From: Salinirubrum litoreum
GTDB lineage: Archaea > Halobacteriota > Halobacteria > Halobacteriales > Haloferacaceae
Assembly (NCBI RefSeq): GCF_020567425.1
Contig: NZ_JAJCVJ010000002.1
Span: 909,068-973,067 of the forward strand
Direction of reading: 5' to 3'
Length of the DNA: 64,000 nt
Shown: in pieces, positions 4,211 to 54,337 of the stretch
How positions within the stretch are numbered: the first letter of the stretch is position 1
How the letters are laid out: each line of letters starts with the position of its first letter
Translations under genes and position numbers: made by a program
Notes under the pieces: model-generated
Seen by the model: only the letters and a program-made list of their open reading frames with translations
The model's database searches: none
Told to the model about the DNA's origin: nothing

Positions 4211-4384
4211 GGGGTCGTGGCCAAGCCCGGCATGGCGACTGACTCCAGAGGCACCGCCCGGTGACGAACTCCAGACTGATATACCGAGCGACCGACTGAT
4301 CATCGGTCGTGACGACGACCCTCTGGAGAACCGAGGCGTACCGGAGATATCAGTCGATCGGGGGTTCAAATCCCTCCGACCCCA
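4211..4384 (+). tRNA. tRNA-Trp (CCA) with a 100-nt intron
   Basis: Acceptor stem 4211-4217 pairs with 4377-4383 and the discriminator is A4384. The anticodon stem ACTGA (4238-4242) pairs with TCAGT (4350-4354). The loop is C32-T33-C34-C35-A36-G37 (4243-4248) plus A38 (4349); the T arm is 4360-4376. Exons are 4211-4248 and 4349-4384. The splice sites form a canonical bulge-helix-bulge: CTCC (4243-4246) pairs with GGAG (4343-4346), flanked by three-base bulges AGA (4247-4249) and ATA (4347-4349), each cut after its second base. No CCA is encoded. Confidence 0.97.
4249..4348 (+). ncRNA. Box C/D guide RNA within the tRNA-Trp intron
   Basis: Box C GTGACGA (4261-4267), D' CCGA (4284-4287), C' GTGACGA (4309-4315) and D CCGA (4331-4334) are present. 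The guide before D (TCTGGAG, 4322-4328) is fully complementary to the spliced anticodon loop; the fifth base before D (G4326) pairs with C34. The guide before D' (ACTGAT, 4275-4280) matches 3' anticodon-stem bases 38-43, and the fifth base before D' (A4279) pairs with U39. This predicts 2'-O-methylation of C34 and U39, which agrees with what is known for the Haloferax tRNA-Trp intron. Confidence 0.93.
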
Positions 4385-44294: not shown

Positions 44295-45683
44295 ATGGTA
44301 CTCGACAATCTCGGCAGTTCTCTCCGTGGGAGCCTCGACAAACTCCGAGGCAAGTCCCGGATCGACGAGGAGGACGTTCAGGAGATCGTCAGGGAGATCC
44401 AGCGATCCCTGCTGTCGGCCGACGTGGAAGTCGATCTCGTGATGGAGCTGTCGGACAACATCAAGAATCGGGCACTGGAGGAGGAACCGCCGGGCGGCAC
44501 CAGCGCGCGGGATCACGTCCTGAAGATCGTCTACGAGGAGATGGTCGACCTCGTCGGGGAGTCGACCGACATCCCGCTGGAACCGCAGACCATCATGCTC
44601 GCCGGGTTGCAGGGCTCCGGGAAGACCACGACTGCGGCGAAGATGGCGTGGTGGTTCTCGAAGAAGGGCCTGCGTCCGGCGGTCATCCAGACCGACACCT
44701 TCCGGCCCGGTGCCTACGATCAGGCGAAGCAGATGTGCGAGAAGGCCGAGGTGGAGTTCTACGGCGACCCCGACGAGTCCGACCCCGTGAAGATCGCTCG
44801 TGAGGGGATGGAAGCGACCTCCGACGCCGAGGTTCACATCGTCGACACCGCCGGTCGCCACGCGCTGGAGGCGGACCTGATCGACGAGATCGAGGAGATC
44901 GAAGGTGCGGTGACGCCGGACCTCTCGCTGCTGGTGCTGGACGCCGCCATCGGGAAGGGCGCGAAGGCGCAGGCCCGCGAGTTCGAGGACTCCATCGGCA
45001 TCGGCGGGGTCGTCATCACGAAACTCGACGGGACCGCGAAGGGTGGCGGTGCGCTGACGGCCGTGAAGGAGACGGGGTCGTCCATCTCATTCCTCGGCAC
45101 GGGCGAGACGGTGCAGGACATCGAGCGGTTCGAGCCGAACGGCTTCATCTCCCGACTGCTCGGCATGGGCGACCTCCAGCAACTCGCAGAGCGCGTCGAG
45201 CGCGCGATGGAGGAGACGCAGGCCGAGGACGACGACTGGGACCCCGAGGACATCATGAAGGGGTCGTTCACGCTGAAGGACATGCAGAAACAGATGGAGG
45301 CGATGAACAAGATGGGGCCGCTGGATCAGGTCATGGACATGATCCCCGGCATGGGCGGCGGGATGATGGACCAGTTGCCCGACGACGCGATGGACGTGAC
45401 GCAGGACCGGATGCGTTCCTTCGACGTGATCATGGACTCGATGACCGACGAGGAGTTGGAGAACCCCCGGATCGTCGGGGCCGAGCGCGTGCGCCGGATC
45501 GCCCGCGGAAGCGGACAAGAGGAGGACGTGGTGCGTGAACTGCTCCAGCAGCACAAGATGATGGAGCGAACCCTGAAGCAGTTCCAGGGGATGGGCGACG
45601 GCGACATGCAGCGGATGATGAAGAAGCTCCAGAACCAGGGCGGCGGTGGCGGTATGGGCGGCATGGGTCCCTTCGGCGACTGA
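44295..45683 (+). CDS. srp54: Signal recognition particle 54 kDa protein
   Basis: 462 residues. NG domain with P-loop G104-LQGSGKTTT (K110), [23 protein letters not shown] and [13 protein letters not shown]. The C-terminal M domain is Met-rich (about 300-460, [29 protein letters not shown]) and binds signal sequences and 7S RNA, with a terminal Gly/Met tail. It targets membrane and secreted proteins to the translocon. It is the last gene of the block; a long non-coding stretch follows. Confidence 0.97.
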
Positions 45684-45965
45684 ACTGTCCGAGCGGTTCG
45701 GTTTCGGCGGTTGCGCTTCTGTAGACCGGGACTGGGGTTGTGATGGTACTGTAGATCGTGTCGACGACAGCTACTGCACCGCGAACCGTGACCGCGACAG
45801 CACCAGCACCGCTACTCGTGCGAGCGCGAGGAACCGCATCCGCGACCGCGACAGCAACCGCACCTCGGTCCTCCCCAGCCTCGGCGGGCGCACGAGAGCG
45901 CCCGCCTCCCTCGCGCGCGTTCCTCGCGCACGCCGGATTCTCGGTGAAAGCGCACGCAACATTCG

Positions 45966-46142
45966 TCACCCAACCACGCGACGACAGCCCGGAATCCGAC
46001 CGGATGCGATCTGCTGGCGACCGGAACCGAGCAGTGTCCGAACACCGTGAGGACCTGCTCGCAGTTCGGTCGCCAGCAGTCGGGGAGGGCTGGGGAGTAC
46101 GAGCGAACCGGATTCCAAACTCACAGACAACTCGATGGGTGA
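45966..46142. repeat. Large diverged inverted repeat
   Basis: Matching blocks on both arms in reverse order: TCACCC (45966) with GGGTGA (46137), GGAATCCG (45991) with CGGATTCC (46109), a perfect 13-bp CTGCTGGCGACCG (46011) with CGGTCGCCAGCAG (46067), and CGAGCAG (46028) with CTGCTCG (46055). Spacings differ between arms, so the arms are related by descent rather than forming one perfect stem. Confidence 0.7.
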
Positions 46143-46175
46143 CCACCAATGACGACACGATGGTTCGCAGAATCG

Positions 46176-46533
46176 GGTGGGACTGAAAGGGGCCGCGGTC
46201 CCGCGAGCCTGCGAGGGGGACGTTGGAGAGCGAAGCTCTCCAGAACTCTCGACCCTCCCCCGACGCCGGTAGCCGGGCGGGACCGGGGGTCCCGCTGGAA
46301 ACCGGCGCGCCGCGCCGGTGGCAGAGCGAGACCTCCGGTCTCGCCAGCAGTCGGGCGACTCCCGTGTCGCCCGACGACACGGGACTGAACGAGAGCGTGA
46401 GCGAAGCGAGCGCTCTCGTGAGGGAAGCGCGTGGTTCGAGAGACGCCAAGGGCGTCTCTCGTCATCACGAGAGAGCTTCGCTCTCTCGAACGACACCAAG
46501 TCGCGGGTGGTCGAGAGCGCGGGGGCTTTCACC
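46176..46533. repeat. Cluster of short perfect hairpins flanked by GGTGGGACTGAAAGGGG and GGGGGCTTTCACC
   Basis: Perfect stems, with loops of 3-13 bases: 46225-46241 (7 bp), 46277-46295 (8 bp), 46301-46319 (8 bp), 46326-46344 (8 bp), 46350-46375 (10 bp), 46389-46419 (9 bp), 46437-46461 (11 bp) and 46468-46488 (9 bp). The 46350-46375 stem competes with 46361-46369/46375-46383. GTTCGAGAGA (46434-46443) pairs with TCTCTCGAAC (46482-46491), enclosing the last two hairpins. GCGAAGC, a known ultra-stable DNA mini-hairpin, occurs directly or as its complement three times. Confidence 0.8.
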
Positions 46534-46634
46534 TGTTGTTGTTCACGACCGATTCATCCGACTCGTCCACGTTCGACTCGACCACGCTCACGTTCGAGAG
46601 GCAGGCATATCCGGACAGGCCCGAACACCCAGCC

Positions 46635-47006
46635 ATGTCACGCGACGAGACGAACGTCTACGGCGACCCCCTCGCACTCTGCGGCGACGACCCGACGACC
46701 GGCTACCTCCGGGACGGACACTGCCGGCATCTGCGCCGGGACCCCGGCAGACACGAGGTCTGTGCGGTCCTGACCGACGAGTTCTTGCAGTACAGCAAAG
46801 CGCAGGGCAACGACCTCGTGACACCCCGCCCCGAGTTCGACTTCCCCGGATTGGAGTCGGGCGACCGCTGGTGTCTCTGCGTCCCGCGCTGGGTGGAGGC
46901 CCACGAAGCCGACTCTGCGCCGCCGGTGGTGCTAGCGGCGACCAGCGAGGCAGTGCTGGACGACGTGTCGCTGGCGACGCTGGAAGCGTACGCGTACGAG
47001 GAGTGA
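46635..47006 (+). CDS. DUF2237 family protein
   Basis: 123 residues. NVYGDPLALCGDDPTTGYLRDGHC, HEVCAVLTDEFLQYSKAQGNDL, and PRPEFDFPGLESGDRWCLCVPRW, quoted in parts, are the conserved core of DUF2237, with cysteines in the usual places (LCG, HC, VCAV, WCLC). The family is widespread in bacteria and halophiles; its function is unknown, but the cysteines suggest metal or thiol chemistry. It is the last ordinary gene before the toxin operon and converges with it. Confidence 0.9.
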   Translation: MSRDETNVYGDPLALCGDDPTTGYLRDGHCRHLRRDPGRHEVCAVLTDEFLQYSKAQGNDLVTPRPEFDFPGLESGDRWCLCVPRWVEAHEADSAPPVVLAATSEAVLDDVSLATLEAYAYEE

Positions 47007-47939: not shown

Positions 47940-49118
47940 CTACCGCCGCCCTGCTCCTTTGAGTAGCTGAATCGTGTCCACCGGGAGTGCCGATAGCGTG
48001 TCGTCGAACGTTCCACCGTCGGTTCGGTCTTGCACGACGACGAGTTTTCTGAGTAGCGAGCCGTCTCGATACGCCGTGGCGGCGTCTTCGACGACGCTGT
48101 CGTCGTAGTGGTCACGCCATCGAGCTTCGTCCAATGCGGCTTCTATCCAATCGTCCGACAAGATTCGTCCTGCCTCGCGCTCGGGCACGTCGTCGGCCGT
48201 GATATCTCCGCGACCGGACTGGTACATCCGAGCGACGATGACCGGTATTCCGTCCTCGTCGCGTTCGAGGTCGAAGAAGCCGACTCGGCTGGTAGCCGTC
48301 ACGTCACTCACGTCTACGTCGAGTCGGCGGTCGTCGTCGGGAACCGCTTCTTGTACGAGGTATTTCGGGACTCGCGCGGAGTCGACCGCCACGTGTACGT
48401 CGTGTCGTCGAGCGAGAAGTACGAGCGCACAGAGCGACCGAAGTACGTACTTCCGGGGCTCGTCCGGGTCTGTGTCGCGCTCGACGTAGAATTCGAGCAG
48501 TTCTCCGATGGCCGACTCTGCGGCCTCTTCGTCGCCACCGTCGAGCGCCCGGTAGAACTCCGGGATCACCTGCCAGTACCGACTCGGATCGCTCAGTGTC
48601 TCGACGGTCTCCACAAGCTTCGAGAGCCACTCGGATGCACGTTCGTCGTCCAGCACGAGAGCGGCCTTGACTCGGGTCTGATAGTAACTGGCGACGGAGT
48701 CCGGATACTCGTCGGCGAACTCGTCGAGGTACGCTTCGTCCAACGCCACGGCGTCACGTGCGATCCCGGTCGATAGCTTCTCGTCTCGACTCAACAGCGC
48801 CGTCGTCAGCGCCTCGGAGAGTTTTCGTGGCTCGGCTTCCCAGACCATTCGCTCCCGGCTGTCGCGTCTGAGTCGCCCCGACACCACTCTCTCGTAGTGG
48901 AGGGACGCGGCGGTTCCGAACCATCGACGAGACTGACTCACCGCTCCGAGAAGCGCCGCAGTACAGGCCAACTGCTCGTAGGCCTTGGCGGCGCTGTACG
49001 CGAATCCGGGGACGCCGTCGACCGGCACCTTGTCCTCGTTCCAGAGTCGGCCCATCCGGCGGACCTCCGCTTCACTCCGTTCGAGGTGGTCTCTGAGCGT
49101 CTCGTCTGTGAAGGTCAT
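47940..49118 (-). CDS. Putative immunity protein with nuclease-like C-terminus
   Basis: 392 residues, cytoplasmic. The first 265 residues are all-helical with [39 protein letters not shown] and [26 protein letters not shown], reminiscent of Imm49-type immunity proteins. The last 110 residues resemble the C-terminal nuclease of the upstream toxin: [14 protein letters not shown] matches [23 protein letters not shown] matches NDWIDDAFN, and LVVVQD matches VIVVQD. The catalytic Glu and Lys are replaced (A296, M298). Its ATG overlaps the toxin stop by four bases, the usual toxin-immunity order. Confidence 0.75.
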
Positions 49119-52100
49119 TTGGTTACTTCACCCGTTCGGATGATACTCACTCTATCGATACCGTAGTCGTTGAGTCCACGAGTCAGCGTCTTGGTGGTGC
49201 GTCCGTCCTGCACGACGATGACCTCTTTCCGGTAGCTATCGGTCTGAATGGCTGTTCTGACCTCGTCGTAGCCATCGAACTCGCCGTCCGCGATTTCGTC
49301 GTTGAACGCGTCGTCGATCCAGTCGTTGGTCATCTGGCGAGCGTCTTCTCCACTGTCGAGTTCACGAGTCGACCCGAGAAGTCCCTTCCCCGGAGTGTCG
49401 GACTTTCTCGTGAACTTCACCTCTGTCACGACGATGTTACCGTCGTTGTCCCTGGCAATGAGGTCGATGCCGGGATCGGTACCGCCTTTCTCGTCGGCGT
49501 AGAGTACATCCCAGCCGCGACGTTCGACGAGTTTGGGAGCGATGTCTGCCTCGACAACGTCCGAGCCGATCTGTTGACTGGAGAGGTCACGAAGCTCCTC
49601 GACGGAGTCTACCGCATCACTGTTGTCGAGATAGAATCGTTCGGTGTCGTCCGGGTAGCCGAGTTCCGTCTCGATACCGTACTTTTCACCGTCGATTTTT
49701 ACCTCGCCGTCGACACGCCTGACCGCCGAGACGGTGTCGAGATCATCGATAGCTTTGAGTCCCGTTTCGGGGACGTTACTCTGGACCAGCCGGCCGAATT
49801 CGTCGGTGTCGAGGCGCTCCGCGAGGCTGGATCGAACGTCCGAATCGACGCGCCACATGGGCGCGTCGAGATCGGTCTGGACGCTACACTGCTGGATAGT
49901 CGATGTCGAGAGCGAGAACTGCCGATCCGGTGTGACTCCCGCTCCGGCACCGACGCCAGTCACCGTGAGACCACAACTGTAGTCCAGTGCGTCTCGAAGC
50001 CCATCGTCGTCGAGTCTCGCCGCGCTCACGGCCGCGTCCGGGTCACCGTCGAGAACTTGACTGAGTTGCGCACGCCTGTCGGCGTCCAGTTCGGCGTACC
50101 GGAGTGCGAGTACAGAGCGAGTCCGAACGTCGATATCGAAGTTCGTCAGATCATCGAGCGTCGCCTGATCTAATCGCCGAACCGCACTCGCGGTGTCGGA
50201 GCCGCCCTGTGCGACCGCTCTCGCGAGGCGTCGTTGCTCGAGGTCAGACAGCTCACCGATGTCTGCGTCGGCACCCCGGGTCGTCCGCCACAGCCGGTAG
50301 ACTTGGCCGACATTGCTCGCTTCGCCGAGGTAACTCCCCGGCACGTCGTCCGCACTCCGCACGATAGTCGTCGCAACGCGCGTCTTCGCGGCGTCACCCA
50401 GATCGTCGATCTTCGTCAGCACCGAGCCGACTCGCGTACTCCGGATCGAGTCGCTGATGCGCTGGACCGTCCGGGTGCTCTTGATCGCCTTCGCGGCCGA
50501 GGCACCGACGAGCGCCTTCGCCACGAAGCCCATCGCGTAGCCGGCGTACCAACTCGCCCGGAAGTCGTCGTACAGCGCCGCCCCCCGATCGTAGGGGTTG
50601 TTCCGCTCCATCTTCGACTGGAACGAGTCGATGGCGGCGTTGACGATGCGTTCGACCAACTGCGGGCTGAGGTCGTTCACCAGCGCCAGCAGTTGCTGGA
50701 TCGTGTCCACGAAGAACAACGGATCGTCCAGCACCTGCTGGATCAGGTCGATCACGTTCGTCGCCACCGCGCCGAGACTCGCAGAGAAGCCGGACAACGA
50801 GCCGAGGTTCGCGGCGATGGCCGACGTGAAGATGGTGTCAGAGCCGAGTCGCCCGGCGAGGTTGCCGAAGAAGTTGGCCCGTTCGAGGCCGACCGTCTCC
50901 TTCAGGTTGCCGTGGACGTCTTCGGCCGTGACCGTCACCGAGGTCCCGGTGAAACTGTCGAGGATGGTCTCGCCGGCCCCGGTCGAGAAGCGCCAACTGA
51001 CGCTGACGGCGTCGGCACCGTCTGCGGTGGTGCTAAACCGCTCCGTGCCGGCCTTCACCAGCGCGGTGCTGGCGACGCCCGAAGCGTCACTCACCGACCA
51101 CAGCAGGTAGTAGGTCGTGTCGAAGCTGAACGCGGGCTTGTAGAAGTTCGCCCGGATCACCTCGACGTCCGGTCCCTGATAGTCGTGGAGCGTCGGGTCG
51201 GTCCCGATGTCGATCTCACGAGCGTCGCTGATCCCGTCGCCGTCGGTGTCGGCGCTCGTCGGGTCGGTCGCGTTCCGTCGCTCCGCGCCGTCGTCCAGTC
51301 CGTCCTCGTCGGTGTCGGCTGAGAGCGGATCGGTCGAGACGTTGTACTCGGTCAGCGCGTCACCGATCTCGTCCGGTGACTCGGCGTTCAGTGCCTGTCG
51401 CGCGGCGTCGGGACTCGTGGCGACAGTGACCTGTGAGGACTCGGTGAGTTCCTCGGCGTCCGAGAGACCGTCGTCGTCCGAGTCGACCTCGGTCGGATCG
51501 GAGTTCAGGGCGTAGTACTCGCCGTAGCGCGTCTCCAGCGGGTCGCCGACCTCCTGTCCGTCGGGGATGCCGTCACCGTCGGTGTCCGCGTCGTAGGGGT
51601 CGGTTTTCAGCGTCTCGCCGATCCCGGTGCGGATGCCGGCGCGTTCGAGGTTGTCCGAGAGTCCGTCACCGTCGGAGTCCTGAATGCCGGTCGTGTTGTT
51701 GGCGACACGTGAGAACACCTGCGGGAGGTCGCTCGCGTCGTCCACGCGGTTGTACTCGCCGCCGGTGATCTGTGCGATGTCCCGGAGGAGCACGTCGTCC
51801 GGCGCGCCGAAGCCGATCGTGTAGATCGTGATGTTACGGTCTGCGGCGCGTTCTGCGGCCCGTCTCGCGGGCGCTCTCGCGGCCCGGCCGTCGGTCAGGA
51901 GCACCTCGATCTTCGCCCGCGAGTCGTTGCTGTTGCGGTCGAACTCGCGGTTGGCGGCGTCGATGCCGTCGCCGATGTCGGTGCCGCCGGAGGCGTCGAG
52001 GCGGTCCACACTGCGGTTGACCGCGTCGAAGTCCGTCGTCAGCGACTGGCTGACGAAGGCGTTCGAGTCGAAGTCGACCACGCCGGCGCGGTCACCCTCG

Positions 52101-54337
52101 ATCAGTGCGCCGACGAACCGCTTCGAGGCGGTCTTCCGGAAGCCGTTCGGGTCGTTGCCGCCCATCGACCCCGAGGAGTCGATGGTGAAGACGACGTCCA
52201 CGAACTGCTGGGTCGCGTTGCCGCTCCCACGGTTGCTCGGCAGGTCGGCGCTGAACAGCGATCCCCAGTTCGCCACGTCGAACACGACGAACGTCGAGAA
52301 GTGCGGGGTCGTCCCCGTCACCGTGTTCGACTCGGGATCGACCGTCGACTCGACCGGCACGAACGTCTGTGCCGACCGGTTGTAGGTGAACATCCGGAGG
52401 TTCGACTCGTTGTCGACCCGCCCGGCGTCGTACTCGATGGTGACGTTCGCCGACTCGAACTCGCGGCTCGAGTCCAGTGAGACCAGCGGCGAGACGCTCG
52501 CGTTCTGCACGCTTCCCGCGTCGAAGCGCGTCCGGTCGTCACGCTCGATGGTGACGCCGGCCGCGACCGCGCCCTGTCCGTCGAGCGAGACGGTGGTGCC
52601 GAGCGACTCGTTTGCGGTCGTGGAGGTGAACGTCTCCTCGCCGTCCGGCACCCCGTCGCCGTCGCTGTCGGGGTCGAGTGGGTCACTGCCGAGGCGCACC
52701 TCCTCGCCGTCGAGGAGTCCGTCGCCGTCGGTGTCCGGGTTCGTGACGTTCGTCCCGTACTCGTCGACCTCCTCGCCGTCCGACAGCATGTCGAGGTCGG
52801 TGTCCGGCACGGTCGGTTCGGTGCCCAACTCGGCCTCGCGGCTGTTCGACAGTCCGTCGCCGTCGGGGTCTTCGGCCCCGTCGAGGGTGCCGTCGTCGTC
52901 GGTGTCGGCGTCGGTCGCGTTCACCGCGGAGAAGGCGGTCTCGAAGGCGTCGGAGAGCCCGTCGCCGTCGGTGTCGGCCGTGAAGGAGTCGGTGCCGTAG
53001 ACGTACTCGCCGTAGGTCGGGAGCGTGTCGTTGTCGAAGTCCTCGCGGCCGTCACGGACGCCGTCGTCGGCTTCGTCCGTGGCGGTGCGGTTCGAGTCGC
53101 TGTCCGGGTCGAGCGGGTCGGTCTCGGTGACCGACTGCTCGTAGACGCCCGGCAGACCGTCGCCGTCGAGTCGGAGCAGGTCGAAGCCGACCTCCGGGTC
53201 GCCGCCGGTGTCTACCGACTCGCCGTCGTCCTCCTCGTCACCGTCGTCTTCTTCGTCGTCCTCACCGTCGTCTTCCTCGTCCTGCTCGTCGTCTTCGTCG
53301 TTTTCGTCGTCGTCACCCTCACCCGGTGGGCCGTTCCCGTTTCCGGGACCCTCACCCGGTGGGCCGTTCCCGTTTCCGGGACCCTCACCCGGTGGGCCGT
53401 TCCCGTTTCCGGGACCGGCACTGCTCGACAGGTCGCCGGACTCGTCCGACTCGGTGGATTCGTCGTCACCGACGAACGTGCTGTACTGCGTGCCGGGATC
53501 GACCACGGTGACATTGATCCGGTTCAGATCGGCGGTGACGTTCACCGCCGTCCGGAACGTCGTCTCGCTCGCGGTCGTGTTGCCCGTCAGGGGGACCGTC
53601 GCCCGCGTCTCGCCGTTGACCGAGACGGTGGCGTTGTCCAGTTCGTAGGGCCGAACGTCGAACACCGTGCCACGAACGACGTAGCTGATCGTTCCCTCGT
53701 GTCGCGGATCGGGGCGACTCGTGATCGTCACCTGCGGGTCGGTGGCGGCGTCGACCACGTCGAGTGCGGTCTGTGCCTCGCGCCACGCGGTCGCGTACTG
53801 CGCGATGGCGGCCGGACTCGACTGCTCGCGCAGTTTGTCACCCTGCTCGAGTCGCCGGTCGGCGCGAGTGAGTGCGGCTTCGACCGCCTCGCGGTCGTAC
53901 TCGATCCCGCGTTCGTCGGCGAGTCGGGCGGCACGCTCGGCGTCCGCGATTGCCGTCGCCGCCAGCGCCCGGTCCGACACCGCGAGCTGTGCGCCGACCT
54001 CGCCCGCCTCGGACGTGCTCCCGGCCGCGACCCGCTTGTCGGCGTCGAACGACGGCTCGCGCGTCCGGTTGTCGTCGAGATAGCCGGCGAACGTCGATTG
54101 CAGCGTCGATTCCAGTTCGGCCTTCCGCGTCTCGTTCGGGAAGGTCGTCTCGTTCAGCGCACGGGCGGCCGCCAGTCGTGCGTCGGTGGAGGACACGTCC
54201 GCAGAGACCGACGGAACGCCCGGCGCGTTCCCGGCCTCGTCGTCGTGATTCCCCAGCGCGACGACGGGTGCGACGGTCCCGGAGACCATCAGCACCGCCA
54301 GCGCGAGTGCGATCAGTTTCGTGCCACGGTTCGGCAT
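49115..54337 (-). CDS. Giant secreted polymorphic-toxin-like protein with VWA, TSP3 repeats and C-terminal nuclease
   Basis: 1740 residues. Sec signal (1-28); helical segment (about 40-190); beta domain (about 195-290); three copies of an 11-residue Gly/Pro/Asn repeat and a highly acidic run (about 305-378); calcium-type TSP3 repeats DxDxDGxxDxxE (about 380-590 and 890-1085); VWA domain with MIDAS D720 ([10 protein letters not shown], about 715-880); hydrophobic/pre-toxin region (about 1150-1300, [16 protein letters not shown]); helical part; C-terminal PD-(D/E)XK nuclease (about 1590-1740) with D1625, E1639 and K1641. It is likely displayed or secreted to deliver the nuclease into other cells. 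Immunity-like genes follow. No secretion machinery is adjacent. Confidence 0.85.
53316..53414 (-). repeat. 33-bp perfect tandem repeat inside the giant toxin gene
   Basis: Three identical copies starting at 53316, 53349 and 53382, encoding [11 protein letters not shown] three times. The copies are identical at DNA level, so the array is recent and may vary in number between strains without changing frame. Confidence 0.9.

Follow-up and report, generated by a model that had tools for sequence, protein, structure and literature searches.

The REP and BIME repeats of bacteria, the former joined with TnpA_REP (i.e. RAYT) in the REPtron, are among the closest described systems to the element reported here. 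They are high-copy, intergenic units of ca. 20–40 bp consisting of a hairpin and a conserved unpaired 5' tag (GTAG or CGTC), which occur as inverted pairs and are enriched between convergent genes. MITEs, including those derived from IS200/IS605, are non-autonomous and dispersed, with a parent transposon and sites that turn over. A third group is formed by the candidate structured RNA families of comparative genomics, with their conserved folds, compensatory changes and RNA-like internal loops. The RepRanger survey of REP sequences covered no haloarchaeal genomes (PMC12306157).

The present element was noticed as a cluster of hairpins in a window of 64,000 nucleotides from Salinirubrum litoreum (contig NZ_JAJCVJ010000002.1, positions 909,068 to 973,067), whose own numbering is used below. 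Its motif string was found in one unrelated paper only, the literature search turned up no report of the element, and it is apparently undescribed. On balance we favour the view that the segment belongs to a REP/BIME-like, dispersed, non-autonomous, modular structured repeat of the Halobacteria, of which it represents a single copy. Copy number, class-wide spread, compensatory change, strand asymmetry, turnover of sites and head-to-head pairing support this.

The segment (46176–46533) is located between ffh/SRP54 (44295–45683, + strand) and a gene with its start at 46635 (+). Counting perfect Watson-Crick stems that reach 7 bp or more (loop 3–40), it contains 14, four of them of at least 10 bp; 500 dinucleotide shuffles averaged 2.0 such stems and never exceeded 6. 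The fold z-score is -8.4. The excess of hairpins, given in the preliminary description as eight perfect stems of 7–11 bp, is therefore real. The two stems described as mutually exclusive are those at 46350–46375 and 46360–46384, and the long-range stem is 46434–46443/46482–46491, with hairpins 46437–46461 and 46468–46488 inside it. Three GCGAAGC-type loops had been claimed and were located at 46226–46240, at ca. 46398–46412 and, as the complement, at 46471–46485; both end sequences are likewise present, the left from 46176 and CTTTC up to 46530. Absent from that description was a 14-bp stem (P1) closing the whole segment, in which CCGCG (46193–46197) and CTCTCGACC (46246–46254) together pair with GGTCGAGAGCGCGG (46509–46522). 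The split 5' arm (46193–46254, +) was recognized by reading the sequence and from P1 covariation, and the 3' arm (+) from the sequence and the P1 pairing count. It is the pairing that matters most in the segment. The element also exceeds the limits first noted, with related sequence upstream to ca. 45.86 kb and downstream beyond 46530.

Across the class the core follows the plan GGTGGGACT-GAAAG-GGG-C-P1...P1'-G-GGG-CTTTC and measures ca. 104–126 nt when canonical (ca. 114 nt in the covariance model). The window copy, delimited by own-genome copies, class-wide covariance model matches and covariation, is an expanded core of 355 nt (46176–46530, +). It opens with the 9-nt 5' leader GGTGGGACT (46176–46184, +), which corresponds to columns 1–9 of alignment A1, is unpaired in the predicted fold and is invariant but for T/C at position 3. 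The base stem, supported by covariation, pairs GAAAG (46185–46189, +) with CTTTC (46526–46530, +). The 5' arm of P1 is interrupted by a 48-nt hairpin insertion (46198–46245, +), which was defined from the sequence, a stem search and comparison with other copies, and which resembles insertions in four copies of the same genome (L011, L019, L033, L059). A further inserted block of hairpins, with the approximate limits 46274–46384 (+), emerged from the stem search and from comparison with shorter own copies; its stems are at 46277–46295, 46301–46319 and 46326–46344, followed by the alternative pair already mentioned. The window copy is thus the canonical plan with inserted hairpins, and most of the array is a nested insertion into one older hairpin. 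By this account the extra stems would derive from hairpin modules that entered the core, P1 having been split by one such module, and shorter copies would arise by deletion of the body.

Upstream of the core is a left module of class B (46011–46175, +), a 13-bp stem (46011–46023/46067–46079) followed by GTCGGGGAGG. An inverted L module (reverse complement GAGGCTGGGGAGG...) is found at 45865–45919 (-); in other genera the L module motif immediately precedes the 5' end of cores. Downstream there is a 3' tail (46531–46610, +). The core also encloses a nested two-hairpin module, GTTCGA-hairpin-TCGTCATCACGA-hairpin-TCGAAC (46434–46491, +), which recurs in other copies and genera. This module was seen both within and outside cores in several genera, at L126, L168, L189, L265 and L273; possibly it is a second small repeat family.

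Elsewhere in the window, 4211–4384 (+) gave an Rfam tRNA match over 174 nt which was not reported by ARAGORN and probably represents a tRNA gene interrupted by a long intron. Such an intron is known for haloarchaeal tRNA-Trp. The 1740-aa ORF at 49115–54337 (-) has, by eye, D-rich repeats of calcium-binding type and a VWA-like region, and its product may be a large surface-type protein.

A 411-base query recovered dozens of places in the genome of S. litoreum. The preliminary description named uniqueness of the sequence together with a lack of covariation in relatives as grounds for refutation; the sequence is not unique and its stems covary, and that description was not refuted. With up to three mismatches GGTGGGACTGAAAGGGG had 105 matches in this genome versus 10 for the reversed control; after the context of the matches was read ca. 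91 copies remained, all between predicted genes, these counts being based on the pattern search and the sequence stretches around its matches. An exact 17-mer is present in 58 of the ca. 91. Contigs C1 to C4 carry 44, 44, 2 and 1 copies, which corresponds to a density of 26–30 per Mb for the large C1 and C2 and of 3–6 per Mb for C3 and C4. Left modules of class A precede 54 of the 91 copies, and of class B 37. The body is canonical in 27 and expanded in 39; seven retain half a stem, 11 have no recognizable end, and in seven bodyless copies the body has been lost exactly, with GGGGCC joined to GGGGGCTTTC. In fourteen copies (L018, L067, L051 and 11 more) there are two to four right ends, the spacing of which is nearly always 54 bp. 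In own copies other than that of the window the right end together with the tail is tandemly repeated at a 54-bp period, or repeats of 24–27 bp follow. At L080 (1673–1816) six perfect 24-bp tandem repeats are found immediately 3' of an element copy.

Head-to-head pairs within 60 nt account for 35 of 121 copies, spacers of ca. 20–30 bp being common. With genes called by a composition heuristic, convergent genes flank 25 copies and divergent genes 8 (p = 0.005), and between co-directional genes the orientation is without bias (21 vs 24). Copies may settle mainly at the 3' ends of genes, where the hairpin could also affect mRNA ends.

Occupancy differs between relatives. In genus g2 one intergenic site between two conserved genes holds the core and left module in seven species (G038, G011, G027, G103, G133, G197, G152) and is empty in eight (G213, G209, G196, G097, G194, G207, G199, G013); the spacer is 23–93 bp if empty versus 319–404 bp if occupied, and the flanks are too diverged to place the borders or to define a target-site duplication. 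Downstream of ffh a regular-expression search of 29 relatives from the family found the motif in none of them, a type of search which strongly diverged copies could escape. Read from the sequences, these site comparisons show gain or loss, the direction of which they do not distinguish.

At least 120 contig stretches contain the exact 18-mer GTGGGACTGAAAGGGGCC, and among the matches listed all are from Halobacteria or from metagenome bins of haloarchaea. With a covariance model (R1) of the ca. 114-nt core, matches were obtained in 165 of 194 genomes of Halobacteria, representing 57 of 65 genera; at most 19 places were scored in each genome. No exact core was present in IMG/VR and none was found in phage records at blastn sensitivity, so a virus or phage origin was rejected. 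A known RNA family was likewise rejected: Rfam at gathering scores returned tRNAs as its only matches, at a permissive E-value the matches were weak only, and the plasmid regions described below had no match.

The predicted core fold consists of the unpaired leader and a single long irregular hairpin. Its helix is interrupted at conserved places by the GGG/GGG loop, by an AA-containing loop and by tandem G-A pairing (G45/A98 and A46/G97, each in 57 of 61 sequences). Two-sided changes across genera are seen in 23 of the 30 predicted base pairs. The covariation score is 0.50, compared with 0.134 for a shuffle control that disregards the relatedness of copies and at most 0.067 after sliding by 1–3 columns, a control that favours the tested structure because RNAalifold had derived this as the consensus of that very alignment. 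When P1 was counted independently and without gaps, single positions showed as many as all four Watson-Crick types. Of the copies in which 9 or more of the 12 pairs form, P1 is perfect over 12 bp in 66 of 123 from other genomes and in 34 of 49 from the own genome. The base stem has switched to CAAAG/CTTTG in one related genus.

Mismatches in P1 of copies from other genomes are G-T in 35 and A-C in 9 cases (p = 1e-4); over the whole alignment there are 42 versus 17 (p = 0.0015), or 32 versus 16 (p = 0.03) once the pair richest in wobbles is left out, and these p-values are optimistic because the copies are related. At columns 49/95 there are 13 U-G and no C-A combinations. Considered with the double-sided changes, the excess of G·T over A·C suggests that the fold of one strand is under selection, and its direction fits a fold that would act on the leader strand, as RNA or single-stranded DNA. 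The own copies alone show little asymmetry in P1 (G-T 7, A-C 5), which counts against the favoured reading.

That these perfect palindromes are kept so by template switching during replication, without selection on function, as the GC-rich hairpins, nested insertions, precise body loss and 54-bp tandem duplications, all suggestive of slippage, might indicate, is scarcely credible: the leader and internal-loop mismatches stay invariant across genera instead of being converted to pairs, and a G-T/A-C asymmetry is unexpected.

The core was also found, mostly once and nearly always unannotated, on 36 haloarchaeal plasmids. In five of these an RPA-like OB-fold gene, oriented away from the core, has it ca. 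470 bp upstream. Of 12 further plasmids with the RPA-like gene, five have a diverged core there (E < 1e-5); in others of the 12, including pNRC100, core-like sequence is, by eye, inserted into or truncated. Between gene and core lies a conserved ca. 450-nt GC-rich noncoding region with exchangeable hairpins (L249:2535–3000, and equivalents in 15 aligned haloarchaeal plasmids (A2) including pNRC100, L347), which resembles either a DNA site of the plasmid or a folded RNA of large size. L350 and L353, also among the 12, lack the core and still possess the adjoining region. Long retention is thus possible, yet the core is also detachable. The fixed place in most records examined looks like vertical retention, not free movement, and argues against the mobile reading.

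A combined, quite tentative possibility is that a pan-haloarchaeal class of structured RNA is itself a mobile hairpin element, the invariant leader of which would be recognized by an archaeal RNA- or ssDNA-processing system, and which on plasmids would form the last domain of a conserved folded region of ca. 450–600 nt upstream of the RPA-like gene. That the element might instead be primarily a functional structured RNA family of haloarchaea, acting in cis or trans and dispersed only secondarily, we regard as rather unlikely. The covarying helices set apart by invariant internal loops, the excess of G-T and U-G combinations and the core retained on plasmids would suit such an RNA. It is hard to reconcile with ca. 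90 copies in one genome, with relatives that do not share sites, with the unbiased orientation between co-directional neighbours and with left flanks in which no promoter was recognizable by eye.

Of the three interpretations first offered for the segment, i.e. a mobile noncoding element, a regulatory RNA or a hairpin-based recombination site, dispersal, turnover and covariation speak for the first, with a conserved fold, a regulatory RNA is conceivable, and nothing was found in support of the last; the initial interpretation is thus supported in part. A REP/BIME-like repeat would presumably spread via a single-stranded nucleic acid recognized on one strand, and the mobilizing machinery would act in trans and not be encoded beside it. 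No linked mobilizing gene was found, which weighs against mobility. An all-against-all comparison of 715 ORFs at 120 loci revealed no consistent protein family, and a recurrent neighbour gene was rejected as partner. Y1_Tnp is encoded in 132 of the 194 genomes and is absent from five (G006, G009, G011, G015, G026) each with at least 19 core places; in the S. litoreum genome neither TnpB nor Y1_Tnp genes adjoin copies. A TnpB or IS200-type partner was rejected on both grounds. It is accordingly most improbable that the element is a classical REP or an IS200/IS605-derived MITE moved by a resident Y1 (HUH) transposase, even though its unpaired 5' tag and hairpin, inverted pairs, many intergenic copies and the frequency of Y1_Tnp would agree with one. 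The core is 3–5 times REP length, and IS200 is the only type of Y1 transposase reported from Archaea, the REP-associated subclasses not being so (PMC6006769).

A repeat present in most haloarchaeal genera, with ca. 90 copies here and a strongly supported fold, is missing from Rfam. Should it move, archaea would have a route for mobilizing hairpin elements that does not involve RAYT; should it be an RNA, it would be a new class-wide one. Haloarchaea are model archaea, and either reading can be tested in laboratory strains.

Among known systems, CRISPR was also compared. ACTGAAAG resembles the 3' handle of a CRISPR repeat, a short sequence likeness only; the element has no spaced array, and a sub-threshold CRISPR-DR match falls in an inserted hairpin and not in the core leader. 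With the candidate structured RNA families it shares a class-wide fold, compensatory change and RNA-like internal loops, but it differs from them in its tens of copies per genome, unstable sites, lack of orientation bias and lack of an Rfam entry. It is non-autonomous and dispersed with sites that turn over, as are MITEs, but unlike those derived from insertion sequences has no parent transposon or adjacent transposase that could be found. The likeness to REP/BIME extends to the ca. 91 intergenic copies, the conserved unpaired tag followed by a hairpin, the inverted pairs and the enrichment between convergent genes. The tag, GGTGGGACT, is neither GTAG nor CGTC, and the long core with its covarying irregular helices and conserved internal loops, the spread over a whole archaeal class and the absence of RAYT set the element apart. 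The best reading is that of a modular structured REP/BIME-like repeat which is new for archaea.
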